Source: Lantana camara (taxonomy: Eukaryota > Streptophyta > Magnoliopsida > Lamiales > Verbenaceae). From it: DNA of 64,000 nucleotides. The stretch spans positions 55,843,501 to 55,907,500 of the forward strand of contig CM074863.1 of the NCBI GenBank assembly GCA_037501455.1, written 5' to 3'. A program made the position numbers and the translations under genes. Every line of letters begins with the position of its first letter. The stretch's first letter is position 1. The notes beneath the pieces are model-generated. The model searched no databases. It had not been told where the DNA came from and saw nothing but the letters and a program-made list of their open reading frames with translations. Positions 8,656-63,755 of this stretch are shown here, in pieces.

Positions 8656-8900
8656 AAGGGTCGCGGCCGCGACCCATTTTCTTCATAAAATGGTAGCGGC
8701 CGCTACTCTATTTTTGTGCAAATTTTCATCCAATTTTTGAACAACTCGAAACTTGGCCAAAAATGGGTAGTGGGCGCGGCCAAAATTACACATGTTTCAG
8801 GTCGCGGGCGTGACCTGAGAGAGCAACACAGAACATAAACTCACAAGTCGCGGCCGCTACCGTTTTTACACTGATCGCGGTCGCGGCCGCGACCGCCTTG
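8656..8900 (-). repeat. palindrome cluster type 1 (GGTCGCGGCCGCGACC) in LTR
   Basis: At least five GC-rich palindromic units are spread over 245 bp, including gggtcgcggccgcgaccc (from 8658), tagcggccgcta (from 8693), ggtcgcgggcgtgacc (from 8800), tcgcggccgcta (from 8848) and ggtcgcggccgcgacc (from 8879). Several contain a NotI-type octamer. On the minus strand the cluster starts about 440 bp downstream of the candidate splice donor at 9334. Confidence 0.85.
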
Positions 8901-11417
8901 TACCAGTAGCAAAAGTGAACGAAAATAGAGCAGTAACCACGCCAAACCTTAGCCAACATACCCAGGTATGAAATGACACCAAATAAACAACAAAACAACC
9001 CCAAAACAACACTTAAACATGCTCCTAAAGTGATCAAACATGAGGAGAGTGCATATGTGATCATTTCTTCGATTCTCTTCCCAAACTCATTAATGGTAAC
9101 TCATAAATTCTTCAACTACCATATAATTCATGATCATAAATGAAAAACAGGGAGTTAGGGCAACCACTTTCATGCTTTAAACCAACCAAAACCATCAAGG
9201 AATGCATGAGATCAACAAAATGACATAAAACCTAACTATTACATCATCTTCTCCAATCTCCATGAAAGCATGCATAAAAATTGGGGATGCATGGTTCGAC
9301 CCATAATGAATGTATATTACAACCCTAAGCTTACCTTGTGGATTGGATGAAGTTTGGAAGAGATTTGAGCCTTGAATCTCCAAGCTTGGCAAGGGTTATG
9401 GGAATACACTGGAGAGCTGGGGTTTTTGCTGAAATTTCTCTAAGTGTGGAGGGTTGGTTCGGTTTGGGGTGGTTAAGGGCTAATACATGGTTGAGTTAGG
9501 GTTCCAAAGAATTGATAACCATGGTTAATTTGGTTAACACATTTCGGTTGAATTTCGGAAGTTCAAATAATTTTGGAAAAATATAAGGCTAAGTTCATCA
9601 AACCCGAATCTTCGATACGAGTTCGAGTTCCCAAGCTCAAGATATCACATACGGAACCAATGGTACGCTAATTGCTCGTTAGCCCCCGTTTTGGATTCCA
9701 AATTCAAAATAAATTCAAAACTCAATCAAATGAATCCAAAAACATGAAACGAGTACATATCCATATTCATAACACGTATAATTCCAACATATTAAATTTC
9801 CATGAAATTTCAAATTCAATTCACGTAGAAACGACAAGCAAACAAGTCATACAAGCGCAAATCATTCGAAATTTCATATAAATTCAAATTCAAATAATTT
9901 CAAATAATTCAATTATTCAAGAATTGAAATAATAATAAAAGTAAATCATATAATTGCCTATTTAAAAAAATTTAAACGCGCACGTAATTATCACATAAGC
10001 CATGTAGCGCCCCGGTTTTTCAGTCGTATAGTATGACGTATGTGTTTACGTAATTGCGCGTTTAAATTATTTGGTTTGTAATTAATTATTTATTATAATT
10101 ATAATTTTCATTAATTATCATAATTATAGTCATTTCATTTAAATTTTATTATTTTATGAACATTAGTTTTATTTTATTTTATGGAAATTGTTTTATTTTA
10201 TTATTGCATTTATGAATGAAATGATCTTATGCTTATAAAATGCATGCCGATCCTATTCGAATTCAATTCCGATTTCTGTAAAAATTTAATGTCATAGATT
10301 TATGTGTTATGAACATCTTTATATGCTCATTTCATGTTTTCGATCTTGTTTGATTGGGTAAAGAATTTTATTTGTTTGAACGGGACCAAATTGGGGCTAA
10401 AGAGCATTTAGCGCACCTTTGGTTTCGGACGCCATATCTTGAGCTCGGGCACTCGGATTCGAGTTCTGTAACCTCCGCTGAACTTTTATCGAGGATTCGG
10501 GTTTAATGGAACAAGGCTCATATTTTTCTAAATACGTTTGGACCCCCGAAATTCAACCGACAAACGAAACAACCGGAAACTGCCACATTTTACCATTTAA
10601 ACCATAACTCTCACCATACTTAACCAAATTAACCATGGTTTGACTTTTTGGAAACCTAACTTAACCTTCTATCATCCTTAACCCACCCCAAAGAGAACCA
10701 ACCCTCACACAAGGGGAAAAACTCAGCCAAATCCCCTGCTTTCAAGTTCTTCCCGTCACTTTGTAATCCTTGGAGATTTTGGAGCTCAAATCTCTTCCAA
10801 CCTTTATCCAATCCACAAGGTGAGTTTAGGGCTGTGATATACAATCATTTATGATCATTTTGAACTATATATCCCTAATTTTGAGCTAGTTTTCATGGAG
10901 TTGTGAAGATATGATTGAATAGTTAGGTTATAGATGAAATTCTTGGTCCCTTTGATTCCATGGAGTTTTTGTTGGATTGAAAGCATGAAAGTGATCACTT
11001 TAACTCCCTTATTGTATTTATGGACATGTATTTTTTGGTAGTTGAGAATTCGTTGAGAAGCCATTAATGAACCTTGGAGAAATTGGTTGAAACTTGAAGT
11101 CATTTACCTCCTTCACGTTATGAACTACTGCTGCTGTGTTTTGGGACTGAAATTGCTGTCATTTGTTGCTCCTTTTTACCTTGTTTGTTGCATATACATA
11201 CCTAATCGTGTCGGATGAGAATTGGAATGGTTGCTGCCCTGTTTTACTTCCTTTTGTGCACTGTTTTTCGTAATCTGTTGGTGCCTATTTCCTTCCTGAG
11301 TTACGGTTTCTTTTAAGTCAGTATTGTGGTAGTTTATGACCTGATTTGCTGCTGAGTTTATTGTCTTGGTTGCCTACTATCTGCTGTTGTAATTTCTTGC
11401 CTTTTGATCAAGGGAAA

Positions 11418-14400
11418 TGTGACATCCCGTATTCTCGAAGGGCGTCCTGACGATATTAACAAGTAAGTCTCTACACTTGTGTGTGTTTAATTTAAGAGTT
11501 CTTGAATTATGTGATTTAATATAAATCCAATTTAATATGTGATCATTTGGATTATTCTAAAATTAATGGTTAAGTTGATTTTAAATCCATCATGTTACTT
11601 AACTTGTTTAATTTCGGTTTACTTGAATTCCTTGAGATTAATTGTCAATCATGTGTTTACGAAGTGTCGTTAAATTGTACGAAAGGTTTCTAAAATTAAA
11701 TTGAATTAAACTCTAATTTGTAAATCTCTCTCTTTCATTTTAATTTATAAAATTAATTCGGAGCTTGAATGTTTATTCGTAACTTTACCAATTTTATTTA
11801 CGATTATTTGTATGTGCTATTACTCTTTGCTACGCGATAAGGATACCCGGTTGTATATAGCTTGTGCACAAGACACATTTCTCCCAATCTCTTTTCTCTC
11901 TCTCCTCTCCCACTCTCTCCTGCGGGTCACTATGCGCGGCTTCGGTTACGAGCCCATAACTCGTTCGTTTCTCGACGGAATTCAACAAACGAATAGTCCA
12001 TTTCGATTATCTCGACGAGGCGTACGCAAGAGTACCAATTTCACTGTCTAACGATGAACGGTAGTGGAGTTATGGCTGGATTTCAGTAGCAGCGGCGGAG
12101 GTGTCAGACCGCCGCCACTTCACCGGCCTTCACGGCGGTTTCCGGCCATCCCCTCGATGCACGCGCCCCATGCCCAGAAACTACACTTCCTAGCCCACCG
12201 TTTGACGTCGGCGGCGCGGCCATCGGAGCCGCGACGGCGCCGCACGCGCCGCCTGAAGCTCGCAGCGGCGGCGCCCGTTCATGTAGCGGCGTGATTTCGC
12301 CGCTTCCGGCGGTGGTTTTCGACGGGGCTTGATGGTTTCCAAGGTTGTTCGACCTCCTGAGTTCATTTACAGCATCAATTTCACCAGATCTTGGCCGTGG
12401 GTGGTGGTTCCGGCGACATGGGCGGCGGCAGATTATTCAGCGGCCAACGGGGGCCTTTTCCGGCCATCTTTTGGCCTCGGGCTCTTCACGAAAGTTGTTC
12501 GGAACGACGAGAACTAGTAGTCTGTGATCACGCGACTCCAGATTTAGCTAATTGGCGGTGAATCACGGCGGCATAGTGGTGGTGTAACGGCGGCGCTAGC
12601 TCCGAGGATTTTTTCGGTAAGCTACCTTAGGGCTTTCGAAGAGCTCGTCATGGGTAAGACAACGCCTCTTTCGGATCGCATTTTGGTTCACCAGTTTGGA
12701 AGTAATTTGAGTTTGAAGATTTTAGGGTTTTCGTGTTCTTAGATCTGAAATTGGAGGAGATTGACTTGGAATTTTCAGAAATTGATCGAGCATTCGGAAC
12801 GGGCACGAAGACTTCATTCAGGATTGATTTTTCGGGATTTTTCCGGCGACCTTCGGCGGCGGCCCGGCCAAATTCCGGCAGCTACAGTGGTGGCGTTCCG
12901 GCTGCATCTGGTCAGAATGTTCGTCACGTTGTGGTGAGTTCAACGCCACTTTTCGTTCGTTAATCGGACACTCGATCTATTTATTACGAATTATTTTGCG
13001 TAATTATGATTATTTGAATTAATTGTTTTAAGTGCAAATAAATTGGTTATTGTTGGTTTGTTGATCGAGATGTATTCCAATCATATATGAAAACATGTAT
13101 TGAATGGATTGTGATATGCATGAATGTTTCGATTTACAATTTGAATTCCGATGTGATGAATTTACGCTATTTGTTAAGTACGAAGGGGTGTTAGTGTAAT
13201 ATCTAGAAACTAATCTCTTATGTGACTAAATGAACTTGAATGATATTTTAGAAGAACGAACATATTGTGATTTCTCTATATGAATTTGAGACGTTCTCCA
13301 TGTTATGTTTGTTTTAAATTGTGTTTCAAATATAAAATTGATATACATGAAGGATGCTTGAACAACTTGAGACTTGATGCATGATAGGAGTTAGAATTTT
13401 AATATCTTGATTTACTCTTACTACTCGGAAATGGTATATTATGAATTACGATAAATTGATAATTGTCATGCTTGTAAGTAATTAATTCCTAGTTGAATAA
13501 TTGTATAAACAATTTAAATGAACAATTATGTTTAGCAATCGACTAAGGGGATGTATGTGTAATAATTCTAAACTTTTATAAATAACTTAGGGGATGTAAG
13601 TGTAATATTTATGAAACTATGAATGTGACTTGAACTTGTGTACCAAACATGTTGTGAAGTTGTAAAGTATGATCTTAAGTGAATTAAATGCACTCTTTAT
13701 TTATATCAAGCATGCTATCTACGTACAACAACCTTGTATGTTTATATGATCAAGTTGCTCTTACTTATGCACTTTACAACTCGTCATGAACTTGATGCTT
13801 AATTCTAATATTATAATTGAACCCTGTGACATTGGATGATTTAATATGCATTTTGTGAATACATTGACTTCCTAAATTGATCTTGCATCTTTGGATATGG
13901 AATTGCATGATGGTTGCTTACAAATATGACCTTGTTGAGCATTGATATGCCTTGAATGACCACGACACCTTATCAAAGCACAACATGAACACTTATGCAT
14001 AACCACGATCATGTTGAGCAACGTCGTGCGTCTTGTTTGGTTCATATAGAGTCTAAGTCTGGGCTTCTGTATGTCTTGTCACAGAGTTTGGTGGTGCCGG
14101 TGGGCCCGAGGTTTAGAGTGTTTGGCCCTTCACACTCTCAGACTCTACTTTCACGAGGTGAGGTTTAGGATTTTGTATAGTTATGCGACCTATGGCCTTA
14201 ATATGCTGATTTCAACCCTTGCATGCGAGTATATCTATTATAAATACGTATGTGTTGGATATTATATGTTTATGACCTTGTGAATCAGCTCTATTTTGGA
14301 AAATTAGATATGAAATCATATGTAAGTTGTTTTGAAAAGTTATGATTTGTTCTGTAGCGAGTTAGCCATGATATATGGTATCTGTTCTATTCTGTTCTGT

Positions 14401-15510
14401 TCTGTTATGGATCCGAGGAGCTATGGGTAAGGAATCCCTGGGACGGTATAGGGCCGTCAGGGCTCGGCCTGTGCATAGTCTCCATTTGAGATATCATCGC
14501 GCGACTCAGGGAGATAGGGGAGGTGTGATATCTTGAGCCTTCGGTGTACAGCCGGGGAGGACTCTTGTGGGTTCGCTACCCCTTGAGGGTTTGTCTGTTA
14601 TGGATGGTTTGGGGACGGTACATCTCCTCCATGATTGGTGTGACGGTTGGATTGATTTTTGTATTCTATGATTTGATATGTTCTGAGGAGTAACGGTTGG
14701 AAGCTCGTACTCGCCGAGCATGTGATCTATTCTGTGTGGGAATCATGAATCGAGATAGAGTTTCTGAAATGTTTTCTAAAACTTATACTTATAACTATTT
14801 TTTGGGTACTTTTGGAAATGTTTTGGTATGCAACACCTATCTCCGGTTCATGAGTCCACCCTTCTGATATGTGCTATGGTCTATATATATACAGTGGGTG
14901 TGCGTTAGCCCCCTCACTCAGTCAGTTGACTGACACCTCATTTTATCTTTTAGTTGCAGGTTTCCTTTTGGTTTGAGCTAGGCGGATGTGAGTCTTCTGG
15001 GTCACACTTGTCGGTTTAGTTGGTGTTAAGATGCATTTGTCACATACTCTATTTATGTTATATATTCTTATTTCACTTTTGCAGATTATGTTTTATGTTG
15101 TACTTAAACTTAAACCCGTGTGGGGTTAGTATGCTAGCATTTGGATGTAATTAGCTATTCTGTTGATACTTATGTTGGTTTATTATGTTGCAATGATTTG
15201 AGATTCGGGACTAGGTACCTATGCTAGTTGAACTCGTCACTTGTTATGTATGTTGATATTCAGGACTAGGTATCTATGCTAGTTGAACCCGTCACTTATT
15301 TTGTACGTTGATTTAATTGCTTCCGCTATCTGATGATAATTGTTTAAATTGCTTCCGCGCTCTGACTCTGTCGAGTTAGATCCGCCTAGTCTAGTGTGGG
15401 AGTTGGTCTCCCATTCGCTTTGATTCGGATTCGGGTATGGACTTTCCATTTCGTGACCGGGTCTGGGTCTTAGTGCGGGGGATGTGGCATCCTCCGTTTG
15501 GGGTGTTACA
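11418..15510 (+). mobile_element. solo LTR, family B-like
   Basis: Begins tgtgacatcccg and ends ggggtgttaca. The flanks ggaaa (11413-11417) and cgaaa (15511-15515) match at four of five positions, consistent with an aged target duplication. The 3' half (from about 14040) closely resembles the LTR at 39040-41926, including the shared block near 14400-14720. A pyrimidine-rich acceptor TTTTAGTTGCAG lies at 14948-14959 and is followed by gagctaggcgg. A donor-like CG|GTAAG is at 12617. A TATA-like gtatatagc is at about 11849. No credible ORF. Confidence 0.8.
12060..12960. other. GC-rich block inside solo LTR
   Basis: About 900 bp markedly richer in G+C than its surroundings, with many cggcgg, ccggcc and gccgcc motifs. 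The two short open frames here overlap one another on the same strand and show no domain. It lies across the expected donor and cassette region of this LTR and may be its counterpart of the palindrome clusters, but I see no clear repeated palindrome. Confidence 0.4.
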
Positions 15511-15549
15511 CGAAATCTTCATACAGGACTGCTGCTGCTCGACTGTAAT

Positions 15550-15606
15550 GCATCTCCCCGGGTGGGGAGATTTTGTGCGTGAAAGTGCCCGGCCGAGGAG
15601 GCACTA
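15550..15606 (+). repeat. palindrome cluster type 2 (CTCCCCG...GGGGAG) in LTR
   Basis: Contains atctccccgggtggggagat (15551-15570) and agtgcccggccgaggaggcact (about 15584). After removing the nested LTR it lies roughly 630 bp after the candidate donor at 10820. Confidence 0.7.
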
Positions 15607-15679
15607 TGCAGTAGCTGGTTGCAGCTTTTTTTCCTTCTTTGTGCATGCATTATGATTGTGTTGGGAAGTTGTTGAGTGT

Positions 15680-15960
15680 ATATATAAGTATATATATATA
15701 TATTTGTACCATATATTAATGCATGCTTGAATTATTGTTGAATTGTGCATGTGTGTGCACGTAATTATATATATATATATATATTACATGAAACATGCAT
15801 GCATGTATACGCATATATATATATATGTGTGTGTGTGTGTGTATGTGTGTGTGTGTGTGTGTTTTCGTATTTGTGCATGCATGAGTATTATATATATTAT
15901 GTGTATGTACGTATATATATAATATATAATGTATGCATGTAGTTTGTGTACGTAGTATAT
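15680..15960. repeat. AT/GT/ATGC microsatellite block
   Basis: Alternating (AT)n, (GT)n and repeated gcatgcatg segments. The apparent ORFs on both strands are translations of these simple repeats. Confidence 0.85.
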
Positions 15961-16764
15961 ACATTATTTAATGCATGTATGAATTATGAGAATGAAGTAT
16001 GATTTTAATGCATGCATGTAGTGTACGTAAGTATTAAGTATTAATTGTTATTTCTAATTTATATTTATAATGATAGGTCGATGAATTGTTTACCCTATAT
16101 GAAATTATGGAAATTAATTGATACCATTTCATGTTCATGTTTATGTAAATAACTTTGTTTTATCTAATTCCTAATTTAAGCTTAATATGGTATGTGTTTG
16201 AGATTATTACATGGAGTGTATGGCTCGAGTTCAATTGCTTCGTGAAAAATCGTAGAACGATTGAATATGAACCCTTCAAATGTTGAACGTGCTTGAACGT
16301 ATTGAGTGAATTGCTTGATTTCATGACTCCCCAACGTTATTTTACTTCTTATGCATTTCATATCATGTTCATTGCATGTCGTGCGTCATATATGGTTCAT
16401 TTGGAGTCTTGAGTCTCACGAGCACGTTACATTATGCTTTGTACAGTTTTCTCCAGGGTGGAGATGCCGGGTTCATAGGTTACTCCCAAGTCTTCTTTTC
16501 TTCTTGATATCGTTCGGTAAGGTGTAACAGCTTCTTTGTAGGTTTGGAGTGCTAGGCGGGAAGTCAAGTCTGTCAGGTTTATTAGTCTAGTTCCCGCCTA
16601 GCCTTATGAGTGAGTGAGTCCCCGTTCGCTGTGAGCTGGGTTCATGTATGGATTTTCTATTTCATGTGTAGATCGGGCCCATAGTGCGGGGGATGTGGCG
16701 CCTTTCCGGTTGGGGTGCTACAAGCCATACCTGTACGACTGAAAAGTCGGGGCATTACACTAAG

Positions 16765-21444: not shown

Positions 21445-21848
21445 TGTGTGAACGGTCAGAAACATGCCAACATCCTGCACCAGCACCCTGCGGAGATGGT
21501 TCCAGTCGATATTTGCTGGCTTGTTGATCAGTGGGGGATCGACATAGTAGGACCACTTCCGATCACAACCGGTCAGAGACAGTACCTGTTGGTCGCGATT
21601 GAGTATTTCTCCAAATGGGTTGAAGCCCAGCCAGTCGCGAAGATTACAGATAAGGTTATTCAAAACTTCCTCTGGCGAAACATCATCTGCAGATTTGGGA
21701 TCCCATGGGTCCTGATTAGCGATAACGAAACACAATTCCAAATCGCAAGCACCAGATCATATTGGTCAGACATGGGCATTAGTCAGCGTTTTGCATTAGT
21801 TGGCCACCCTCAAGCAAATGGCCAAGTAGAAGTCATCAACCGCATCAT
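21445..21848 (+). pseudogene. Tat-type integrase core, truncated
   Basis: In the same frame as the preceding segment: WGIDIVGPLP (Asp codon 21541), LISDNETQF (Asp codon 21721) and GQVEVINRII (Glu codon 21829). The second Asp and the Glu are separated by 35 residues, the DDX35E spacing of LTR-element integrases. All three catalytic residues are present, but the protein stops being integrase at about 21848, where it runs into the middle of a family A LTR. The open frame continues into that LTR only by chance. Confidence 0.88.
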
Positions 21849-22014
21849 TGTTGCAGTGTGTGTGTGTGTGTGTGGTTTTAGGGTGAGTTGGCTGCTCTTT
21901 TTACATCCTTTTCTTGCCTTAATTGCTGGCTTTGTTGCCTTATTTCGTGCCTCTACTGCTGTTGCTTGCTATGGAGGAAAACAGGGGCTGGAAGCCCTGC
22001 TACGCGACTGCAAC

Positions 22015-22168
22015 ATGCGAGCGGGCACGACCGCAGGAAAGCTGTTTTGGGTCGCGCCCGCGACCCTAAATTGCCCCAGTTTCGACTTGTTACCGTCTGT
22101 GCTGCTGCTACAGACAGAAGTAGCGGCCGCGACCCTTTTGTACTTATTTTGGTCACGGCCGCGACCTT
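22015..22168 (+). repeat. palindrome cluster type 1 in LTR 1
   Basis: Four GC-rich units: around gcgagcgggcacgaccgc, gggtcgcgcccgcgaccc (about 22050), agcggccgcgacc (about 22120) and ggtcacggccgcgacc (about 22151). Same layout as 30175-30328 and 42218-42371. Confidence 0.82.
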
Positions 22169-22280
22169 ATTTTTGAACATTTTCGTACCTTGCTATCTGT
22201 TGCTGCATATTTTGCTTCCTTTTTGTTTGAATCGTGCAACCTTGCTCATATGTTTATTATATTGCCTCAAGTTATGGTAT

Positions 22281-22282
22281 AT

Positions 22283-22317
<35 letters not shown>

Positions 22318-22387
22318 ATGTACTAAGCAGTTTGTGAATGTAATGAATATATATTATACATATAGAATATACATGTAGCTTATGTAC

Positions 22388-22427
<40 letters not shown>

Positions 22428-22430
22428 TGT
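22281..22430. repeat. (AT)n and (GT)n microsatellites
   Basis: tatatata followed by a (GT) run at about 22298-22318 and a long (AT)n tract at 22389-22424, separated by a short unique piece. It is shared in shorter or longer form by the related LTRs. Confidence 0.85.
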
Positions 22431-47098: not shown

Positions 47099-47101
47099 GT
47101 C

Positions 47102-50183: not shown

Positions 50184-52144
50184 ATGAAGACAAGGTCTGA
50201 GAGAAACCCCTTCTGCCACCTAAACCGTATAAAAGAAAGGTCACACAGAAGAGGCAGGTTCTGAAAATTACCCCTAAACCAGCAGAACCCGTTCATGCAG
50301 AGGAGGTGGCGCCACCAATCAATACGCCATCACCACCCCCTGAAACTGCGCCGGAAACCTCAATTCCTCAAGAAGAAACAAACCCTACCACCATAAGTCC
50401 TCCTGAACCCCCTGTAATCATTGTGGAAGAGCGCCGACAAGCTACAGACCCTACTTTGGGTTCAATTTTGAAGCAAATCAGACAATCTTATGAGCCAAGA
50501 AAAAGGAAACTTCAACTGAGAGATGAAGAAAATGGAGCAGAGCCCTCTAATCCTCAAGAGTCTGAAAAATCACAACAGAAATCAAAGAAGAAGAGTGCGA
50601 AAAAGAAATCCAAAAAGGGAGAGAAAACTGAGAAGAAAAAGAAACCCTCTCCAACTAACTCTCAAGAGTTGAGGGCAGCAGAAACTCTTATGCAAATTGA
50701 TGAACCAATGGAAGAAGAATTACAAGAGGAAGAAGAACAAGAGAAAATCCAAGAAAAAGTCGATGAGGAGGCTGAAGAGGGACACAAGACTGCAGAGGAG
50801 GGAATTAATGATAAAGAAAAAGATACAAATGCTCATGCAGTGGTAGAACGGGAGACTGATGATACTCCAGAAAATGAAGAGGAAATGCACGAAGCGGATG
50901 CACCAGAAGATGAAGAACAGATAGAAGAGGAAGAGCATGTTGAAGAGGAGCAGATGGAAGTGCCTACGCAGCCTACAGAGAAAACACATCTCCCCAAGAA
51001 GCACAAAAGAAGCAGAGTATCAAAATCTAAGACCCCTGCCCCCGCAAGATTTCAAAATCTTGGAGGACAACTCAAATTCACTGCCAAAACAGAAAAAACG
51101 AGGTACAATCAAGTTAAAGAACTTTCTATTGCTATTGCTAAGAAAATTGATGTGCCTACTCTTGAAAATTTTGAATTGATTGAACCTGTATATACCTTGC
51201 TTAATAACATAGGATGGAAAGAGTTTATGGAAATAGACACAGATATCTATTATGAACTCACAATGGAATTTTATTCAGCTTTTAAATTCCTGAAAAAGCA
51301 AGCCTGTAATTGGGATGAAGATGGTCTTATCACGTTTAGACTGCTAGGCAAAAGAATTAATTATTCAATTAACCAATTCTGTGAAGTTCTGCAATTTGAT
51401 TACTTTCCTATTAGAGGGGAAGCTGATGTAGTGTGCCTAGGGGATTTTCCCCAAGAATTTGATCCTGATGAAGCCTTTAAGCAGTTAACTGATGGCAAAT
51501 ATGATAAGTTTGATGATGCTAAGAGCATTTACTTAAATGATCCTGCTGTAGTTTATGCTCATAGATTGCTGTCAATGTTTTTCTCCCAAAGAACTAAAGG
51601 TTCAAGTACTATAACTAAATCTGAACTATACTTTTTGTGGGCTATGTGGAATAATTGGAAAGTAAATATAGGTTTTTGGGCTGCTGTGCACATTAATGAC
51701 TGCATCAAATGGAATAGGCCACTTAAATTAGGGCACCTAATTACTCATATTGTTGTGCATGAACAACTTCTTGACTTGAATGATCATGATCTTACTCTAC
51801 ATTCTGAAGTTTCTCCATTAGATGAACATGTGCTGCTTAACATGAGAATACTCCAAAGAAAAGATGGACTATTGTGTTTTCCTGGTGCAGGTACAATCCC
51901 TGTTACAAAAAGAAGGAGTGAAGATGCCCAATCTGAGGCCACCACCAGCACTTCTAACACTGCACAGTTGAACAGAATTGAAGCTCTCCTCACAACAGTC
52001 CTAGCTAAAATGGAAAAATATGAAAAATCAGTAGAAAAGCTCCCAGCCATGGAGAATTCAATGGACATCATAGCAACCCACATAGCAGGAGTAGAAACTG
52101 ACATTGAGGCCATCAAGAAAGGCCTCAAAATTAGCACTCACTAA
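50184..52144 (+). CDS. Athila post-pol ORF (no recognisable envelope)
   Basis: The frame is open from about 50201 to TAA 52142, giving over 610 codons after GTG 50306. No ATG lies in that frame near the start. An ATG at 50184 (MKTRSERNPF) in another frame is the likely original start, so a small frameshift probably lies near 50205-50215. The N-terminal 230 residues are Pro-rich and then Lys/Glu-rich with long acidic runs. A folded domain follows (about residues 245-530) with FQNLGGQLKF, LLNNIGWKEFMEI and NYSINQFCEVLQFDYF, resembling the plant transposon-associated/ATHILA ORF1 family from memory. The C-terminal 60 residues look coiled-coil. No signal peptide or membrane segment is evident, so it does not look like an envelope protein. 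Function is unknown. Confidence 0.75.
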
Positions 52145-52207
52145 ACGGCATTCAGGGAAGCCCTCCTGTTTCAATTCTGTTTATCAACATTGAGGACAAT
52201 GTGAAAT

Positions 52208-52225
52208 AAGTATGGGGGTGGGGAG
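52208..52225 (+). other. internal polypurine tract (central PPT-like)
   Basis: aagtatgggggtggggag shares aagtatgggg with the terminal tract at 53280-53294 and lies 1.07 kb upstream of it, just after the post-pol ORF. It could prime plus-strand synthesis internally. Confidence 0.55.
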
Positions 52226-53279
52226 TAGGTGGTTGTGGTTAAAAAAAAAAATTTAGATCTGTCTGTTACTTTTAATGACTGTTGCTTTAATTATTTTTGT
52301 TGGCTATTGATAGTTGATGACAGGCTTGTAGCCTTTTTAGGTTGGTTCCTTTGAGAATTTTGACTGATTTTTGTGGCTATTTGTTAGCCAGTGTTTCTGC
52401 TGTGAGAAACTGTGAACCTGATAACCTCATGTGCAACATGTTTTGGTTTGAGAGCTTTTGAACATGAAGAATAGGTTGAAATAGCATGAATTTCCATGTC
52501 TGATTCTTGGAATTGATCAAATTTATAAGTTCTTTGGCTCTGATAGAGAATGTTTTTGAATTTGGATTAATGGGTAAAATTTAAATTGCATGCTTAAATT
52601 GGACCTTCATGTGTGAAAAAGTGTGTCATTTTTGGACTGTCTAAAGGAATGTTATTGATGCTGAATGTTAATGATAATGTTGATTGAGGGATTATGTTAT
52701 GAATAAGGCTGTAAAGCCATTAGCTTCTGAACAAGGCTTTTATAGCCATTTGTCTCTCAATAAGGCTGTTTCAGCCATTTGCTTGATGCAGTTCGCTCGT
52801 TTTACTCCGCTGGTTACCTAAGGCTAAATACAAATCATAAACTGAAAAATGGGTGACTATGAGTGATGCATTTTTATGCAGTCTAGGGATAGTCATACAT
52901 TACCAAAGCGGTATTATGACACCCGAAATAGACAACGTTTTGAATTTTGGTATAAGTGTTATGTTGGAACCCTCACTTTATCCTTTGTTTTGTTGGAATT
53001 TAGACAGTCCAGAATAGCCACCCTTTGATCATATGTTGTGATTACTATTTGGTAAATGTGCATGATTAAATGAATTCTAAATTCCTCAACATTCTCTAGC
53101 AAGTTAAAAACTTACAATTTGTTCTTTTCCATTTTGATAGACTGTGGAGACTTGTTATCAAACTCATTTTAGTGTTCACATTTTCTCATTAAGAAACTAT
53201 GGGGCTGAGGTGGTTTGATGGGAATCATCTTGCAGTTTGTTAGGATTGGAAGTTGTTGCTTAGGGACAAGCAAAAGTCT
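52226..53279 (+). other. 3' untranslated region of Athila element
   Basis: About 1.05 kb without a gene. It contains a poly-A stretch (about 52239), three hairpin-like repeats at 52705-52779 and otherwise AT-rich sequence. Confidence 0.6.
52705..52779 (+). repeat. three spaced AAGGCT...AGCCATT mini-hairpins
   Basis: Units at 52705-52720, 52733-52750 and 52762-52779, about 29 bp apart, each an aaggct followed by agccatt with a 2-6 nt loop. The stem is conserved while the loop varies, which suggests RNA structure. Confidence 0.75.
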
Positions 53280-53294
53280 AAGTATGGGGGGATT
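53280..53294 (+). other. polypurine tract of Athila element
   Basis: aagtatggggggatt lies directly before the 3' LTR and would prime plus-strand DNA synthesis. Confidence 0.88.
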
Positions 53295-54740
53295 TGATAG
53301 TATGCATAAATTACATGAAAATCTCTTTCTTTTTCCCCTGAATTGAATTAGATTTCTACTTAATTTGCTTTTATTTGGCTTTTGCAGAAACATGTTGATA
53401 AATGAGGGATTTGGCAGAATCATGAAGGAAAAGACGCTAAGTGTTGAAAATACCTGAGCCATGACCCCAATGCATGATCATCCCTAAGGCTAATGTACGC
53501 AGAGCAGACCAAGGTCAACAAGTACGGCTGATTCCTCTTGTTAGGACAGGTGGCACACATGCAACAGCTTGCTAACATGGCTTACATGCAAGAGTTGATC
53601 CTGCGTTTTTGAAGTTTCAAGAATCCTAATCATGCTTATTGGGATTTGTAAAAGTCATTTTATCTCCCTTGATCATTATCATTTCTAGATTTAAGGGTAT
53701 TATATAAGCTAGTTAAGGGGAAAAAGGGGACAGACTTTTAGACAATTCAGAAAATAGAAAATAGCAGCAGCTAGCAGCAGAGAACAGCAGGGGATTTCTT
53801 CCTCAAAACTGTGATCATTTTCAATTTTTATGTTTGAAGCATTTAAGTTTGGTATTTTATTTTGAATTGTTTTAAGTTCAGAATATTTACTGTTTATCTT
53901 GCATATGATGATCCGTGGGTAAACATAATTGTCTTAGTTAGGTTGTATCTTTGTTCCTTGCCAATATTTATGAGATCTAAGTGAATGAATACGAATTTAA
54001 TCTATGGTATTTATGCAAGCTTTGAACGTATTTATATGAGTTGTTTTCAAATCATCTTTCTGATCAATCGATGCCTACATAACAACTTGATGAGGTTATA
54101 CTGATACCTGATACGTAATAGTCTTGTAAAGGTGTACAAGAACCACACATCATTGAGAGTTTACTACCATGTTTACTCAATAAAATGGTGAGCCATGCAT
54201 AATATGATTTCATAAGTCCAAGCTTCTTGAGATTTTGGATCATGATTAATGTCATTTTGGTGCTCAATGCTATCATATAGTTAAATCCTAGATACTTGTT
54301 CGCGGGACTGCTATGTGGTAAGAATTTAATTGATGAGCTTCTCTTGATTAAGTTAAAAATAAGAAAGGATGATATGGACAAGCTTCTTGTCTATTGTAAG
54401 TTAATCTACCATTTGATTAGACTTGATTTTTGCATCGAGGATTAGATATGGGCATGGAATGAAGTAACAACTTGGCTAAGATATTTCTTTCATAATCAAC
54501 CTTCACAACTCTCTTTAATTTCAGTATTAGTTAATTGAAGAAATTTGATTTTGTGACTTAAAATAGTTTGTTTTAATTACATAAACACACACACCCCTCT
54601 AAGTCTCTTTTGAATATTCTCTTAGATACATTGAATATAAGTCTATCTAGTCCTGTGGGTTCGACCCTTTGCTGCTATGTTACAATTTTATATTTTGTGC
54701 GGTAAGTAAAGGATTTAATTGGTGGATTCAACAACCATCA
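53295..54740 (+). repeat. 3' LTR of Athila-type element
   Basis: 1446-bp copy of 42712-44155 ending acaaccatca, followed by the duplication ggcgg. Confidence 0.95.
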
Positions 54741-56479
54741 GGCGGGAACTAAAACTTCAAAACCAAATAAGTGATACAAGAGTTAACAAACGTGCGGAAG
54801 CAAAATATGTAATTAATCACGAATACAAGTAAGACAGGACGAGTTCAACTAGCCTAAATTCCTAATCCCGAAAATTCAACATAAATCATAATCATAGTCA
54901 CGGGTTCAATCTGTCCCTAGAAGCCTGTCCCGAATCAATATCATAACATAATCATAATCGTACAAAGCTCAAAATTGTTCAAGTTTACAAGATGCACGTG
55001 ACATGACTCAACTTATTCAAAAGACTTGACAGACACGACTTCCCGCCTAGCACTCCAAACCTGCAAGAAACGGAAAACAATCTGGGTTCAGTCTATAGGA
55101 GACCGGTGGGTATAAAACAGGGCATAACATAAATAGTATTGCCGAATTTAAACACGCCCACATGCAAGCTATAATCCCGTGTGAGGTTTGTTTAAATATT
55201 TCCCAAGTTGGTGAAAACAAAGTAAAACAACACTCGGGATTACAACCATCAATTTCGTTTATTCATTCAATCATGTGGTCATTACATGAGCCCGGCGAGA
55301 GGACGAATTCTCCAACCTTCTCCTCGTGATCAGCCATTAGTGATCATAACACATTCATTCATTCGTTCATGCATTCGTTCATTAGCATACATTCAATCAT
55401 ATCATTCATAATCAAATCATAAAACAAGTTCCAACCTTCTTCCTCCGGGTGGTGGACGGGTTAGCAAGACCCAGCCCCCTCAATCATTGACCAAAGGGGG
55501 TTCATGAGTTCCCCAAAGGCACTCAGCTCCCATTCCTCGCTAATCTCCTAGCGAGGGCCTGTATCACCGTTAATATTTGTTGGGACTAGTGCACGGGGAT
55601 CACTGTCAGCCCGAGCTTCCCCGGATAGCCACGTACACATAGTCCCGGGCCCCATAAACAATGTGTTCACTGATCTCGCCAAAACATTTGGTAAGGGATT
55701 CATGAAAGGAAAAAGGGCTTTACGTTGAAAATCATAGACTCTTTTGAAAAGACTCGATATATATACATATATATAATATTTTGGCTTAAAACTTCACATA
55801 AGGATATATCGGGGTCATCATAGCTAATAGAAGAGAAACCCACCTGTTACACTTACCGACAGTACCAGAAGAAAGAAAGACTTGAGGTGTCCTATGAACC
55901 CGGCATCTCCGCCCTGGAGAAGACTGTACAAAGACAACATAATGTATACGTGAGACTCAAGACTCTATATGAACCATATACGACGCACGGCATGTTATGC
56001 ACATGATATGAGATGCATACGAGGCATAAATCATGTTAAGAATTCAAACTACCAAGTATTTCATTCAACATGTTCCATACACGAAAGTTTCATATTGAAA
56101 CGTTTCATAATTCATAGCAATTCAAGTCATGAATTTTATATAACAATTAAAACTCAAATATATCAACTTTTAATTATAAAATTAAACAAAACAAAGACAT
56201 TTAAGGCATAAAACCAAGCCATTCGTTCATTCATTCATTCAAGTTCACAAATTCACATTTCATAACAATTTAATCTAAGAATTTCATATTAATTCAATAT
56301 ATATATCATACCACTTTAGTTTCATAAGTTCATTTCAAATTAATATTAGGATTCCACATATTAAATAACTAGACATTAAATTTCCAATAGGCAAACACAC
56401 ACTCACGTTCACCATTCATCAATCAATATATATATATACATCATATGTTATTCATGCACTCTTACATACACACATGCAC

Positions 56480-56641
56480 TATGTATATTATATATATATA
56501 TATATATATATAGTATAGTATGGTATGCAGGTGTGGGTATTTATGTACGTTATATATATATAGTATAGTATGGTATGCAGGTGTGGGTATTTATGTACGT
56601 AATATAACGTACATAAATACCCACACCTGCATACCATACTA

Positions 56642-56692
<51 letters not shown>

Positions 56693-56700
56693 CATATTGC
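56480..56700. repeat. large palindrome with AT microsatellites
   Basis: A 40-bp sequence (56511-56550) is repeated directly at 56561-56600 and then as an exact reverse complement at 56607-56646, with a 6-nt centre (aatata). Adding the flanking (AT) runs gives at least 50-bp perfect arms. Long (AT)n tracts flank both sides. Such a palindrome would extrude a cruciform or give a long RNA hairpin. Confidence 0.92.
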
Positions 56701-56806
56701 ATAGCACATATTACATAGCATGAAACAACAAAATCCCATGCAAAGCTCATGTAAAAGTCATGCATAAAACACAAATTGAGAGCAAATAAATTAAAAGAGT
56801 GCAGCA

Positions 56807-56942
56807 GCCATCTCCCCGCCAGGGGAGATTCTCTTTGCAATTTTCCCCGGTCGGGCAACATGCAAAACGTTCCAGTAGCCTTCAAGGCAAAGTACCCGAC
56901 CGGGTACTTCTTCCATGTAAATCTCCCCGCCCGAGGAGATTC
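56807..56942 (-). repeat. palindrome cluster type 2 (CTCCCCGCCAGGGGAG) in family A LTR
   Basis: Four units: atctccccgccaggggagat (from 56809), ttccccggtcgggcaa (from 56841), agtacccgaccgggtactt (from 56890) and atctccccgcccgaggagat (from 56921). On the LTR sense strand the cluster starts about 458 bp after the donor at 57401, the same offset as the type 1 cluster in LTRs 2 and 3. Confidence 0.88.
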
Positions 56943-58366
56943 ACTCCAGTCACGCAGCAGCTGAAAACCGAAGTTTATCCCCTGTTTAAAAAAGTAAGAA
57001 CAACAGCAGCATGTTGCAGGCAACAATGTCAACAAACTCAACAACAAATCAAGCCATATACTCCAATATTTAAGGCTGAAAACGAACAACAGCTGAAGGG
57101 ACGGAAAAAGAGTACTAAACTCATGCATAACTCCTTCAAATCCTCAAGAATAATAATGGTATCTCACCCATATCACAACTACCATCCAAAACAGGTCTAA
57201 ATAGCAATAAATTGGGTATAAGAGAGCAAGAGTATAGCACCATTTCAGGCAAAACACCAAAAGAAGTCATGGAATTCAAATATGGAGCAAAACCTAACTA
57301 TTCACTTCAAGGATCAAAAACTCAATCAAAAATGGATCAAATACTGAATTTCTTGGATACCAATGACCAATTAATCCTGTAAATATCAAATACAAGCTTA
57401 CCCCTTGAAGATGATGGAAGAAAATGGAGACTGGAGATCAAGATCTCACTAGGGTTCAAGGTGACGGGAATGTACTGGAAAACAGAGGATTTGGCTGAGT
57501 TTTTCTCCTTGTGTGAGGGTTGGTTCGGTTTGGAGAGAGTAGAGGCTGATAGAGGGTTAAGTTAGCTTTCCAAAAAGTTAAACCATGGTTAATTTGGTTA
57601 AGTATGGTGAGAGTTATGATTAAAAATGGTAAAATGTGGCAGTTTCGCGGCCGTTTTGTTTTCCGGTTGAATTTCGGAGGTTCAAATGATTTTGGAAAAA
57701 TATGAGGCTGAGTTCATTAAACCCGAATCTTCGATACGAGTTCAACGAAGTTGACGGAACTCGAATCCGAGTTCCCGAGCTCAAGATACCACATACGGAA
57801 CCAAGGGTGCGCTAATAGCCCGTTAGCCCCCGATTTGGTTCCACAATTCAAAATAAATTCGTTACCACATCAAACGAGACCGAAAACATAAAACGAGCAT
57901 ATAGACGTATTCATAACACATGAATCTACGATATACTAAATTTTCACGAATTTTCGACATCAAATCATATAAGAACGACGCACGATTAAAACACTCATGC
58001 GCAAACGTAACAATTTCATAACATTACAAATTAAATAAACAAATTTAAATTCTATATTTTAAATTAAACTCAAAGTCAACGGAAATTTTAAAATTAATTA
58101 TTATGGTTAAAGATATATTTGGTTAACATTAAACAATTGATTAACAATTTAAAATACTAAAATAACGAATTAAAATAAAATGAAATAAATTAAAAATAAT
58201 ATCCATTTATATTAAAATTTAATATTTAAAACACCCATAAATAATTAATCACCTTAAATAATTTAATTGCGCAATTTATAAACACACACGGCATATTTGT
58301 ACAAATGAAAAATCGGGGCGTTACATATATTATACATATAGAATATACATGTAGCTTGTGTACGTA

Positions 58367-58397
<31 letters not shown>

Positions 58398-60089
58398 TCT
58401 GCAATGCATGCATGAATTATATGAATGTTGTGTAATTGTAATGCATGCATGTAGTGTGCGTAGGTGTTAAGTCTTAAATGTTATTTTTTTAATTTATATT
58501 TATTTTATAATAATATATCATAAATTGTTACCCTATGTAAAATTATGGAAATCAATTGATATCATTTCATGCTCATATTTATGTAAATAACTTGGATGAC
58601 TTTGTTTTATCTAATTCCCAAATTAAGCTTAGCATGGTATGTGTTTGGGATTATTACATGGAATGTATGGCTCGAGTTGAATTGATTCATGAAAATTATA
58701 GAACGAATGAATATGGAACCTTCATATGTTGAACGTACTTGAACATATTAGGAGAATTGCTTGATTTCATGACTTCCCAACGTCATTTTACTTCTCATGC
58801 ATCTCATATCATGTTCATTGCATGTCGTGCGTCTTATATGGTTCATTTGGTGTCTTGAGTCTCACAAGCACGCTATATTGTTTTTGATACAGTTTCTCCA
58901 GGGCGGAGACTTGTCAGGTTCATAGGACACTCTCGAGTCTCCTTTTCTTCTTGGTATTGTTCGGTAAGAGGTATACAGGTGGGTTTCTCTACTATTTAGC
59001 GAAATGACCCTATATACTTCTAAAGTGTAAAGATTTCGGCCAAAATTTATTATATGTATATAGAGTCATTCAAGAGTAAATGATTGCAACGTAAAGCCTT
59101 TATTTTATAAACCCTACCAAATGTTTTGGCGAGAAGGAATGAATGAATGCATAGAATGGGGCCCAGGGACTTGGTGTGAGTGGCTATCCGGGGAGGCATG
59201 GGCCGACAGTGATCCCTCACGCTAGTTCCAACCAAACTACGGTGATATCGGACCTCGCTAGGAAATTGGCGAGGAATGGGAGCTGAGTGCCACTAGGGGA
59301 GTCATGTAACCCCTTTTGGTCAATGAATGGGTGGTCGGGCCCTACAAACCTTCCACCAACCCGGGGAAGAAGGTGTAAATGATCATGAATGTGCACGAAA
59401 GAAAGTAATGCATGAAAAGAAAGAAAGAATGAATCTCCAAGGTGTTGGTTGGAGACAATGCACGCCCACTCGCCGGGCCACGAAAGACCTAATTTGGGAT
59501 TGTTATAATCCCTTTTGATGATTTCTTTATTTCACCCACTTGGGAAATGTTTTAAAAACCTCATTTGGGATTATAGCTAGCATGTGAATGTTCAAATATT
59601 CTCCTATATTATACTTATGCGCTGTTTTATACCCACCAGTCTCTTAAAGACTAAACCCGGTTTGTTTTAGTTTCTTTGCAGGTTTGGAGTGCTAGGCGGG
59701 AAGTCGAGTCTGTCAAGTTTATTAGTTAAGTCTTGGTCACTTCATATGCATTTTGTAATTAGATTGAATTTTAAATAATGGATAAATGCCATCTATGATT
59801 ATGATTATGAAATTATGTTTATGTATGAATTTTCGGGACTAGGTATCTATGTCAATTGAACCCGTTATTTTGCTAGAATTGGTACTGGATTATATGCTAT
59901 GCTTCCGCATTTGTCATTTATCTTTGTTCTTTATTATTTGATTGCGAAGGTTTAGTTCCCGCATAGCCTATTGAGTGAGTGAGTGAGTCCCCGTTCGCTG
60001 TGAGATGGATTCATGTATGGGCTTTCCATTTCATGCGTGGATCAGGCTCATAGTGCGGGGATGTGGCACCTTCCGTTTGGAGTGCTACA

Positions 60090-60820: not shown

Positions 60821-63755
60821 TGTAGTACCCGGAGCGGCGAGCCACCACATCCCTCACACCTAGCCCCGAACCCACATATGAAATAGAAATCCATACATGA
60901 GCCCAAGACTAAGCGAACGGGAACCTACACACACTAGCTAGGCCAGGCGGAGCTAAGACAGAACCAGAGCACGCAAAACAATAACAAAGCAGAAGCATAT
61001 AACAAAATCCAAGAAGATAAATCCACAAAACTGGTTTAACTATCCCTAGGAGCCAGTCCTGAATAAATAAAATCAATTATTCATACATAACTCATTACCA
61101 AATGCATAACATATACATACTTCCAATGATCAAAACTGAATTACATACATAATGAGACCGAATACAAATGTTAATGTAACTCGAGCTAGGAGACTAGAAC
61201 TTGACCGACTCACAACTCCACCTAGCACGACCCGAAACCTGCAAACTAAAAAGTTGAAAGGAGAGGGTCAGTCCACCGACTGAGTGAGGGGGCTAACGCA
61301 CACCCACACGCGTATATATATATAGAGCAAAACACGTAATAAACCAATGACTATGAATCGGGATAGGGTTTTACATACCAAAGCCATTTTCCAAAAAGAG
61401 CTCATATTTATACATATACTCATATCTTCCTAAGTTTGGAAACTCGTAAGGGTTCATATATATTCAAAGAACGTATATGGATTCACATTAAAAACTCATA
61501 AGGATTCTTATATTCAGATCGATTCATAGCTTAGCGTAGAAATCTCATATTGAAAACAAACTCTCCTATCCCATTTCATAATCAATCATAATAAAACAAA
61601 CTTAAATTACCCGGCGAGTACGGGTCAACTTTACCTCTTAATAAAAGAATTCATAAGAAACATAATAAAACATAAATATATAAAATTCATAAGACCAATA
61701 CCTATACGTGGGGTAGCGATCCCGCAACGTACCTTAAGGGGCACGTGCACAGGCTTAACCCGGCAGCCCAACACCGTCTCAGCGTCCTTACCCACGCCTC
61801 CGGGGCCCAGGGATTCATAAGATTCATAAGGAAACATAAGATTCATAAGAAACATACCTAACTCGTGAAACCTAGAAACATACGATTCATACTTAAGAAA
61901 CATACCTTACCGTGCAACTCGGCATATGCTATACATACCTCTTCGTGTCTTCCAAATCCATATGATGCTGAAGGAGATCCGCAGTTCGCTTGACACTACA
62001 CGGTTTGGAGCATAGCCTCGTTGCAAAACCATTTTAAGCTTACATATGCTCGTATATATAGTTCAAAACATTTAACCTTATGATAAGATCATAAACGTAT
62101 CTTATAAGCACGTATCTATTATATAAATATAATAGTATAGTCACATGCGGGCTTGAAAACGAGCACTTTGGGTTGCTGGCCGTATTAACTAAAAAGAAAA
62201 AAACCTACACCTCACCTTTTTACCAAAATACCAACAGATGAGCATTGACGGTCAAGAAGGGGTTAAATGGTGGATCTGACACCTCTCGAACTCGAATCTG
62301 AGACAAACAAACACATACTCACAACTGAGACTCGATCATGAACCAATTGGACGCACGGCGATGCATAAGAATGTATTTGGATGCAATGCACATCATAAAT
62401 ATTCATACTTAGGCGTCTCGATTCACTTAATGAGAAATCATATCAATAATTCAAGAATTAAATTCATAACGAGTTAAATAAATTCTTATATTAATATTTC
62501 ATATGCATTCATAAGATTAAAGTTCAAAAAGAGATCATGAGATGCAAGAAACATTAAACGTGCCATTCAAGCCATTTAAATTCAAAACACGTACGAACCG
62601 TATTGTATAAATTCATAAACGTAATTCATAAAATATAACAAATAATTAAACTACAAAATTACATTTAGAGTATAAATTTCATGCATAAGAATTCAAATAA
62701 GTACACAAGATCACATTCATAATTAAACCATATAATATAAAAGCAAGATTAAATAAATTGTTAAAGGAAAAATCTATACAATTCATGAATATATACACCA
62801 TGTCACATGCACCATCAGCTCCAAACACATTTAAGATCATATAAATCTAATCTAAGTCACAAAATTCAAAAGCACAAAGCATCAAACTTAATCCATTCAA
62901 GCGCCACGTGAATTCCATGCAAAAGGAACAAAATAAACAAGCAAACACTTAAGAAATTAATGAAAGGAGCATATAAATGAAAGTGCATCAGCTGGCCATT
63001 CTCCCCGCCAGGGGAGATTTCCTCTACAACTTTCCCCGGCCAGGGAAAAGGGAAAAAGTTTACAGAAGGTTCAAAGGGAATGTCCCCGGCCGGGGACTTC
63101 CCAAGTTCATTTCTCCCCGCCCGGAGAGAAGCTTTCTTCGTGAAGAAAACGCAGTAACAGATCGCGAATCCCCTGCATCAAACACTCAACAGCACCAGCA
63201 ACTAACAAGGCAACACACAACAGTAATTAAACCACAAAAGCAACAGCCACAAAACTTACAATTGCAGCCACAAACCGGGCACGAAAGGGATCAAAGATAG
63301 CATCAGATTCCATGGAAAAGCTTGCAAGAACTCAAGATTCAAAAATGGTGAAATCACATACACATCTCACACAACCAAATCATAGCCATAATCACATAAT
63401 AGCTGCTAAGAAAATCACATTTCATGCTTCAAATCACACAGAAACAAGCTCAAGACATGGATTCAAGAAAAATGGAGAAAACTTAACTATTCATTTCATG
63501 GATCAAATCTCAATCATATATGGCTCAAATTATGAATTTCTTGGATGTAAATGATCATATAAGCATATACATATCAAATATAGACTTACCTTTTGAAGAA
63601 GATGGAGTAAAGTGAAGATCAAAGCTCAAAAATCCCCAAGGGTTGAGAGTTGCGAAAATGGAACTGCTGCTGCTCCAGAACTCAGCTTCTTTCTCCTCCT
63701 ACATTCATCTCTCTATAAACTTGATTGCAGTTAAAATTGTTATCCCCAAAACTGT
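60821..63755 (-). mobile_element. LTR related to families A/B (minus strand), truncated
   Basis: The plus-strand left end is tgtagtacccgg, followed by the terminal modules ccaccacatccctc and cgaacggg and a GGCGG module, so this is the 3' end of an LTR read in reverse. An acceptor-like TTTGCAG|GT (minus) lies at 61239-61240, type 2 palindromes at 62999-63131 and a consensus donor AAAAG|GTAAGT (minus) at 63589. The other LTR end is missing: at about 63755 it runs into Tekay-like protease sequence. No matching duplication for gaacg was found. Confidence 0.78.
62999..63131 (-). repeat. palindrome cluster type 2 in truncated LTR
   Basis: Four units: tctccccgccaggggaga (from 63001), ttccccggccagggaa (from 63032), gtccccggccggggac (from 63081) and tctccccgcccggagaga (from 63113). 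On the sense strand the cluster starts about 457 bp after the donor at 63589, matching 56807-56942 in order and offset. Confidence 0.88.

Follow-up and report, generated by a model that had tools for sequence, protein, structure and literature searches.

Why do long terminal repeats (LTRs) of several kinds, packed into one stretch of the Lantana camara genome, carry clusters of GC-rich palindromes at nearly the same place, and what might such clusters do? The stretch comprises 64,000 nucleotides of contig CM074863.1 (assembly GCA_037501455.1, positions 55,843,501 to 55,907,500, forward strand), is filled with nested plant LTR retrotransposons, and is hereafter called the window; all coordinates refer to it. 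An earlier note on this DNA had proposed that the clusters form a cassette conserved in position and exchangeable in sequence. The building block of all four palindrome vocabularies turns out to be a pair of palindromes with a CG-rich core, placed about three helical turns apart. Similar clusters have been described in a different group of plant retrotransposons, the Sireviruses, and those found here are a variant of them; the new points are the 31–34 bp pairing and the presence of the clusters in LTRs that are apparently not of Sirevirus origin.

Palindrome clusters in nine LTR copies

The clusters lie in long LTRs, on both strands, that end with some variation in TGTAAYRCCCC...GGGGTGTTACA. 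Eight copies had been counted earlier; the number is nine (E1, E2, E3, L1, P, M1, S3, S4 and Q, nested insertions set aside), or seven insertions when the three LTRs of the E tandem (clusters starting at 22015, 30175 and 42218) are counted once. Everything reported below thus comes from one window and seven insertions, a small sample.

All nine intervals in which clusters had been claimed contain them. Type 1 cassettes are present in L1 (8650..8900, minus strand; six dyads, centred at 8886.5, 8853.5, 8807.5, 8773.5, 8699.5 and 8666.5) and, on the plus strand, in E1 (22015..22168; dyads 22024.5, 22057.5, 22126.5 and 22158.5), E2 (30175..30328; 30182.5, 30215.5, 30284.5 and 30317.5) and E3 (42218..42371; 42225.5, 42258.5, 42327.5 and 42360.5), the last of which has decayed partly by CpG transitions. 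Type 2 cassettes are those of P (15550..15605, plus strand; one remaining pair, dyads 15561.5 and 15592.5), M1 (56807..56942, minus strand; 56930.5, 56899.5, 56850.5 and 56819.5) and Q (62999..63131, minus strand; 63120.5, 63089.5, 63039.5 and 63008.5). Type 3 is found in S3 (33045..33170, plus strand; 33051.5, 33083.5, 33126.5 and 33158.5) and type 4 in S4 (40085..40330, plus strand; seven dyads from 40102.5 to 40312.5). The consensus cores are CGGCCG in types 1, 2 and 4 and CGCCCG in type 3, with a centre that varies in single units, and the consensus arms are GGTCG, CTCCC, CAAA and GGAA, from which single units also depart.

The palindrome clusters exceed chance. Scanning for near-palindromes with arms of at least 6, at most one mismatch, a spacer of 0–4 and at least 50% GC, we found 65 in the window, 27 of them inside the nine intervals (1404 of 64000 bases, 2.2%), where 1.4 would be expected under a uniform distribution. 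A comparison with shuffled controls was run on the nine intervals, each extended by 20 bases on both sides and shuffled 200 times with dinucleotides preserved; in these tests, which are post hoc because the intervals had been chosen in the earlier note, no shuffle reached the observed palindrome coverage in seven of the nine. The other two were the interval with one pair left (15550–15605; 5 of 200 shuffles) and the decayed copy at 42218–42371 (17 of 200). A scan with the four consensus motifs, allowing at most three arm mismatches, returned 37 motif windows, corresponding to 36 distinct sites and one shifted overlap of a unit. Thirty-four of the 36 sites are units of a cassette; of the other two, one lies outside and one, in the S4 cluster, matches type 3 by chance. 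By the near-palindrome scan, the LTRs of C1 (a chromovirus-like element at 1947–8645, inside L1) and of the Athila-like element nested in M1 have no palindromes; among other cluster-free LTRs, N, which is without most of its right half, has one, and S4b (11418–15510, inside P) has five scattered ones.

A common distance within palindrome pairs

Distances between successive dyad centres (in bp) are 33/69/33 in the E cassettes, the second pair of E1 measuring 32 with a one-base gap in the alignment, and 33/46/34/74/33 in L1. They are 31/49/31 in M1, 31/50/31 in Q and 31 in P for type 2, 32/43/32 in S3, and 32/46/31/37/32/32 in S4, whose cassette includes a 32-bp tandem duplication. With one LTR taken per type (E2, M1, S3 and S4), 10 of 15 spacings fall within 31–34 bp, against a mean of 1.67 under the one null model tried (uniform placement between fixed ends, with centres at least 20 bp apart), and none of 20,000 random placements reached this number. 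The count becomes 13 of 20 when L1 is added and 9 of 14 when the tandem duplicate of S4 is left out. Because the weakest of the units picked by motif (four or five mismatches) could be chance matches, the test was also run on strict units with at most three arm mismatches (E2, Q, S3 and S4); here 8 of 13 spacings lie within 31–34 bp, a result reached by none of 20,000 placements for that band and by two of 20,000 for any 4-bp band.

The sequences lying between the two members of a pair differ among pairs of one cassette and look unrelated by eye, the S4 duplicate excepted. Duplication therefore does not explain the spacing, and a constraint of helical phase on the DNA explains it better than an RNA loop does.

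Position downstream of a donor-like site

The clusters lie 1.0–1.5 kb into the LTR in the seven LTRs whose start is known, and in the eight LTRs that could be measured the first dyad lies 408–644 bp past a GT that resembles a splice donor. The distance from this GT to the first dyad centre is 452.5 bp in E2, 463.5 in E3, 447.5 in L1, 470.5 in M1, 468.5 in Q, 408.5 in S4, 549.5 in S3 and 643.5 in P, values that agree to within about 15 bp with the offset given earlier (390–630 bp, mostly 435–460 bp). L1 had been said to lack the donor; it has one, GTAAGC at 9329..9334 on the minus strand, with its GT starting at 9334. The remaining donor-like sites are GTGAGC of E2 (29730..29735, plus strand), those of E3 (38870), P (10820, plus strand) and S3 (32502, plus strand), GTCAGC of S4 (39694, plus strand), and those of M1 (57401) and Q (63589) on the minus strand. 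Seven of the eight have the form [A/G]GGT[A/G]AG, and S4 reads GGTCAG.

A donor of this form would be met by chance 350–650 bp upstream of 9% of random points on the plus strand and 5.5% on the minus strand. The site is conserved across the alignment of six LTR left parts, and shared descent accounts in part for the likeness of the offsets among E, L1, M1 and Q. More independent cases are S3 and S4, the left part of S4 having one weak stretch in common with E, M1 and P. The offsets and the four types together support the proposal of a palindrome region that is conserved in position and differs in vocabulary. A second GGTAAG in a similar context was noticed in the right half of the E, P and M1 LTRs (22990, 31196, 58962 and 16515 on the plus strand; 55858 on the minus strand).

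Candidate function

Dyad symmetry in four vocabularies, combined with a constant distance within pairs, points to a DNA-binding protein whose dimers sit in pairs. As the likeliest reading, we propose that the clusters may be cis-regulatory cassettes in which operator-like sites, arranged in pairs and written in an element-specific vocabulary, serve dimeric DNA-binding factors, and we judge the chances that this is right to be about even. Each palindrome would be bound by one protein dimer, and two dimers, separated by three helical turns (31–34 bp), would lie on one side of the double helix, probably in a cooperative manner; the pair distance is thus a sharp prediction about the proposed protein. 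The factor would read the CG-rich palindromic core plus the lineage-specific arms, giving each LTR lineage an address of its own. With its position downstream of a first-exon-like stretch and a donor, the cassette may act as an enhancer or anti-silencing element in a leader or intron, not as an upstream promoter element. The donor-plus-cassette module may have passed between lineages by recombination, as in template switching of co-packaged RNAs. If the arms are indeed addresses for co-evolving factors, the cassettes would bear on escape from silencing and on the separation of retrotransposon lineages.

Some base changes in type 2 preserve the symmetry: one arm position of unit B is A-T in M1, C-G in Q and (by eye) G-C in P, and one of unit A is A-T or T-A. 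Several observations count against the proposal. Such compensated doubles make up only three of 18 changed cells (61 cells tallied), at two positions, one of which appears in two comparisons; the others are seven one-sided changes that break a pair, seven that restore one, and one other double, in a tally that leaves out one changed cell unpaired in both rows as well as unit B of P, which contains an indel. These events are too few for covariation to serve as proof of selection on the dyads. Complementarity within units (366 of 448) is only slightly above that between pair partners (173 of 224), and this closeness is compatible with pairing into hairpins; RNA structure does exceed background in several cassettes; and the spacing statistics come from a single null model. 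In S4 a good TATA box (LTR position 522, about 39561) precedes leader-like sequence and, at 655, a donor-like site; S4b likewise has a good one, at 437. Such promoters would put the cassette in the transcribed leader or the first intron. E and M1 have no clear TATA box upstream, and the right halves of E, L1, M1, S3, S4 and S4b contain TATA-like sites, so that this placement is tentative.

Transcribed palindromes might act instead as RNA, pairing with themselves or with a neighbour into hairpins that give rise to small RNAs or influence packaging. A role of this kind has been proposed for the Sireviruses of maize, whose palindromes are described as small-RNA hotspots (PMC5311732, PMC10760457). 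Folding z-scores average -2.10 on the cassettes (24 folding windows in eight LTRs, E3 being left out) versus -0.23 elsewhere (372 in eleven LTRs), 29% of cassette windows versus 3.2% of the others fall below -3, with S4 reaching -7.0 and E2 -5.0, and a stem can arise when a palindrome pairs with an adjacent copy of itself. However, S3 shows no excess of structure (z from -0.15 to 1.05), P shows little (-0.74 and -1.05) and L1 a moderate amount (-0.92 to -2.28), while the most structured window lies outside the cassette in five of the eight LTRs (L1, M1, P, Q and S3). The palindromes of M1 and Q pair better with themselves than with their partners, the reverse holds for unit B of P, and E is mixed. 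A hairpin, moreover, has no need of a fixed distance of 31–34 bp. RNA hairpins as the sole explanation are inconsistent across the cassettes, and we consider an RNA-level role possible but rather unlikely. Nor do we see more than a small chance that the palindromes are a functionless mutational product of quasi-palindrome template switching and tandem duplication. The duplication in S4 would fit such an origin, and the few compensated changes could be templated corrections; yet the motif units are nearly confined to one region of the LTR, and one pair distance across four vocabularies argues against an artefact.

The composition of the cassettes raises two further explanations. Symmetric CG and CCG sites could attract or read DNA methylation and so silence the element. 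CpG density is higher in the cassette than in the rest of the same LTR in all nine copies (4.4–10.4 versus 2.3–3.2 per 100 bp), and in the E1–E3 cassettes 15 of 120 CpG bases have changed versus 12 of 339 non-CpG bases (p = 0.001), a decay that suggests methylation of the region after insertion and no more. The excess over CpG bases elsewhere in the LTR (15 of 120 versus 10 of 180) is marginal (p = 0.053), the observed/expected CpG ratio of type 2 is not raised (0.81 in M1, 0.73 in P and 0.57 in Q, all below the rest of their LTRs), and a methylation platform leaves the distinct arms and the pair distance unexplained; we attach only a slight probability to it. Very improbable is a small coding region of which the palindromes would be a by-product. 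The longest sense open frame of the LTR does cross the cassette in seven of nine copies, with up to 197 codons, but GC-rich palindromes hold few stops, only 49 codons are open at the cassette in P and S3, and a one-base difference between units B and C shifts the frame between M1 and Q. As the frame is not kept between these two, a coding function of the cassette was rejected; the two cassette-crossing frames scanned against Pfam (E2 and M1) gave no match.

Lineage of the cassette LTRs

Palindromic LTR motifs with a CGG-CCG core are known from Sireviruses (Ty1/copia), and the cassette LTRs were compared with the marks of that group. In Sireviruses the junction between 5' LTR and primer-binding site (PBS) is CA/ATTGG followed by an initiator-Met PBS (PMC2829016). 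The E element (34879–34899) has a different junction, reading CA/TCCTTAAG and then TGGTATCAGAGC; E is the one case in which the junction can be read, the other cassette LTRs having no internal region in the window. A Sirevirus-type AT/TG attachment site is present after the terminal polypurine tract (GGGGGGAGAT/TGTAACG at 28994 and 38055), and it is not exclusive to that group, as C1, with its Ty3-type protease, has GAT/TG at 7037. Palindromic motifs with a CGG-CCG core are also present, in the upper half of the LTR in six of the seven copies with a known start; the cassette of P, which is without much of its right half, lies just past the middle. Since the motif is absent in eight of 21 Sireviruses, it does not define them.

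The LTR ends TGTAACNCCC / GGGNGTTACA, with an initiator-Met PBS, are chromovirus-like, and we take them to be typical of Ty3 chromoviruses of the Tekay/Del-like kind. The Ty3-type protease (PF08284, 1.7e-32) was found only in the palindrome-free C1, whose LTR ends are similar to those of the cassette LTRs; within the window, no coding region is tied to any cassette LTR and no chromodomain was seen. Given the junction mismatch of E and the Ty3-type protease of the sole coding element with similar ends, Sirevirus membership is not supported. Judged by their ends, the cassette LTRs, none of which flanks coding sequence in the window, look like Ty3 chromovirus LTRs. A pattern match to a viral contig (L001) had no BLAST similarity to the window at an E value of 1e-5 and was taken as a chance match. 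Two further viral scans and one scan of bacterial and archaeal genomes yielded none of these LTRs, a result of little weight, as these collections contain no plants.

Comparison with known systems

Palindromic repeated LTR motifs were reported by Bousios et al. (2010) in 13 Sireviruses, 12 of them with a CGG-CCG core (PMC2829016). Those motifs are element-specific, form CpG islands and lie upstream of the TATA box; they were called Sirevirus-specific with respect to other Ty1/copia elements, and no common binding factor could be named for them (PMC2829016). The Lantana clusters share with them the clustering itself, a vocabulary differing by element, the CGG-CCG core, a location mostly in the upper LTR half, CpG richness and a variable region, and unit numbers overlap (2–7 per LTR here versus 3–14 in Sireviruses; 3'LTR column of Table 3, PMC2829016). 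They differ in that the Sirevirus junction is missing in E, in that the LTR ends are chromovirus-like, and in that a first-exon-like stretch seems to precede the cassette, whereas the Sirevirus motifs are upstream of a TATA box. No pairing comparable to the 31–34 bp distance is described for Sirevirus motifs in the accessible text of PMC2829016. A Sirevirus-like design in LTRs that have a different junction and look like those of Ty3 chromoviruses suggests either that both groups converged on one host factor or that the design was exchanged across superfamilies.

Tnt1, Retrolyc1 and Retrosol are Ty1/copia elements. Their LTRs are likewise modular, with a regulatory region that diverges or is replaced while the rest stays (PMC1838419). 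In contrast to the present case the variation there is in U3, and palindromes go unmentioned (PMC1838419). The cis-regions of several element families have been described as arrays of repeats that are sometimes palindromic (PMC10760457, with reference to Vernhettes 1998, Araujo 2001 and other work), so arrays of palindromes have been published before for elements other than Sireviruses. In the fungus Podospora, the crapaud LTRs similarly have diverged variants confined to the 5' LTR half; escape from repeat-induced mutation was tested as the cause there and not found, and the abstract does not refer to palindromes (PMC10787394). Among the open PMC papers listed by our searches, judged by titles and the beginnings of abstracts, we found no report of palindrome clusters in Ty3 or chromovirus LTRs or of palindrome pairs at a fixed distance.

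The motifs recognized by the VANC anti-silencing proteins of VANDAL elements are alike in being short, dense, non-coding or intronic, family-specific and of fast turnover (PMC5735166, PMC10398659). VANDALs differ in being DNA transposons with motifs in one orientation and a binding protein encoded by the element, and palindromes are not among the properties named in the accessible text of PMC5735166. As no coding sequence accompanies the cassette LTRs, no VANC-like protein could be seen here. By analogy, paired element-specific operators in Ty3-type LTR lineages might address a fast-evolving factor, whose gene would reside in an autonomous relative or in the host, to their own LTRs within the transcribed leader; such a system would resemble VANC/VANDAL in anti-silencing or activation, would be dimeric and palindromic, and would trade its modules by recombination. 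This general scheme is speculative, and we think it unlikely in full.

Descent and recombination of LTR modules

The earlier note had held that LTRs of the same family carry type 1 or type 2 at identical offset, and that the cassette swaps while its flanks stay constant. Similar offsets are confirmed, but "same family" is too strong, as the left cores of type 1 LTRs are 69–77% identical to those of type 2 LTRs. Recombination among the LTRs is likewise borne out, but not exchange of the cassette by itself, the type being inherited within a lineage.

The type 2 cassettes of M1, Q and P are homologous. The four units of M1 recur in Q in unchanged order and the first two of them in P, and the cassette forms an island of BLAST similarity (M1–P, 71.7% over 152 columns; M1–Q, 73.8% over 168) that follows, in both comparisons, a stretch in which none is significant. 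Homology is likely, too, for the type 1 cassettes of E and L1: they align unit by unit and have one spacer piece in common, although BLAST does not join them at the cutoff used.

The clearest mosaic is P. Identities of the left core are 80.3% for P–M1, 70.6% for P–E2 (69–71% for P with the E LTRs), 75.1% for P–L1, 77.9% for E2–L1, 73.4% for E2–M1, 76.5% for L1–M1 and 77.7% for L1–N. On the right side P is 84–85% identical to E (84.7% to E1) and 65.1% to M1, counting all aligned columns, poorly alignable stretches included; in two well-aligned windows of 150 columns the values are 90.7 and 83.3% for P–E versus 76.1 and 79.3% for P–M1. Quartet sites on the left favour E3+L1|M1+P (19 versus 8 and 6), and on the right E3+P|L1+M1 (41 versus 10 and 7) and E3+P|M1+S4 (20 versus 3 and 2). 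P, M1-like on the left and E-like on the right, is thus a mosaic with a break downstream of the cassette.

Other LTRs point in the same direction. Q resembles M1 at the donor and cassette and, in part of its right half, S4 (79.1% over 163 columns), its whole right-hand alignment giving 55% identity to S4 and 47–53% to E, M1, L1 and P. The identity between L1 and E is about 90% in one stretch of the right half only. The right parts of S4 and S4b are 80.7% identical over 1505 columns, and no similarity between their left parts was found by BLAST. The left half of S4b, rich in GC and in GGC, contains a TATA box in place of a palindrome cluster and is joined to the right half that S4 also has, as if the entire promoter had been swapped. 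The motif type is in line with the left-core quartet, weakly so for L1, whose left core is about equally distant (75–78%) from E, M1, P and N. In the cases seen, the exchanged module appears to be donor plus cassette, with breakpoints downstream and the cassette moving with its left neighbour. Exchange of the cassette alone is not supported, because type 2 is homologous in M1, Q and P, type 1 is alignable between E and L1, and type matches the left core.

Organization of the window

L1 (81..16759, minus strand; pieces 81–1946, about 8650–10002 and 16728–16759) is a solo LTR flanked by the target-site repeat CTAAG, and inside it lies the solo LTR P (10003..16722, plus strand; pieces 10003–11417 and 15516–16722), flanked by AGCCA. 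The E tandem (21845..60089, plus strand) has the order LTR–internal–LTR–internal–LTR, with E1 truncated by loss of its 5' part (21845–24137), E2 at 28994–31773 and 34838–34879, and E3 at 38055–39039, about 41932–42583 and 58326–60089. Its two internal regions are 90–98% alike where they can be aligned, and the E internal stretches searched contain no open reading frame (ORF) of more than 105 amino acids. The solo LTRs S3 (31774–34837) and S4 (39040–41926) are on the plus strand, and the solo LTR M1 is on the minus strand (start 58325, end 42584), with the Athila-like element inside it; S4 and M1 are each flanked by TATAT. The target-site repeats are perfect for L1, P, M1 and S4 and match at four of five bases for S3, and hence these LTRs were inserted as they are. 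Q (minus strand) ends at 60821, and its start was not seen.

The element nested in M1 (42712–54740) has 1444-bp LTRs that are 97% identical, an Asp-type PBS at 44161, a long pol ORF (47099–49744) and an ORF (50201–52144) with a below-cutoff match to Transposase_32; its lineage is presumably Athila-like. ORFs for reverse transcriptase, RNase H-like and integrase at 19335–22176, which we assign by assumption to a Tat-like element, break off near the truncated E1. No Rfam family matched the window at gathering thresholds.

Two nested insertions adjoin cassettes: about 20 bp separate the end of C1 from the closest L1 dyad (8645–8666), and about 50 bp separate that of S4b from the first P dyad (15510–15561). 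Palindromes are reported to be frequent targets of LTR retrotransposon insertion (PMC6911290). Downstream of the M1 cassette, at 56480–56678, there is a TA-rich fold-back inverted repeat of about 200 bp. A protein search with the protease ORF of C1 gave 705 matches, and among the 120 listed the best named ones were from Primulina, Sesamum and Coffea, at 37–42% identity.

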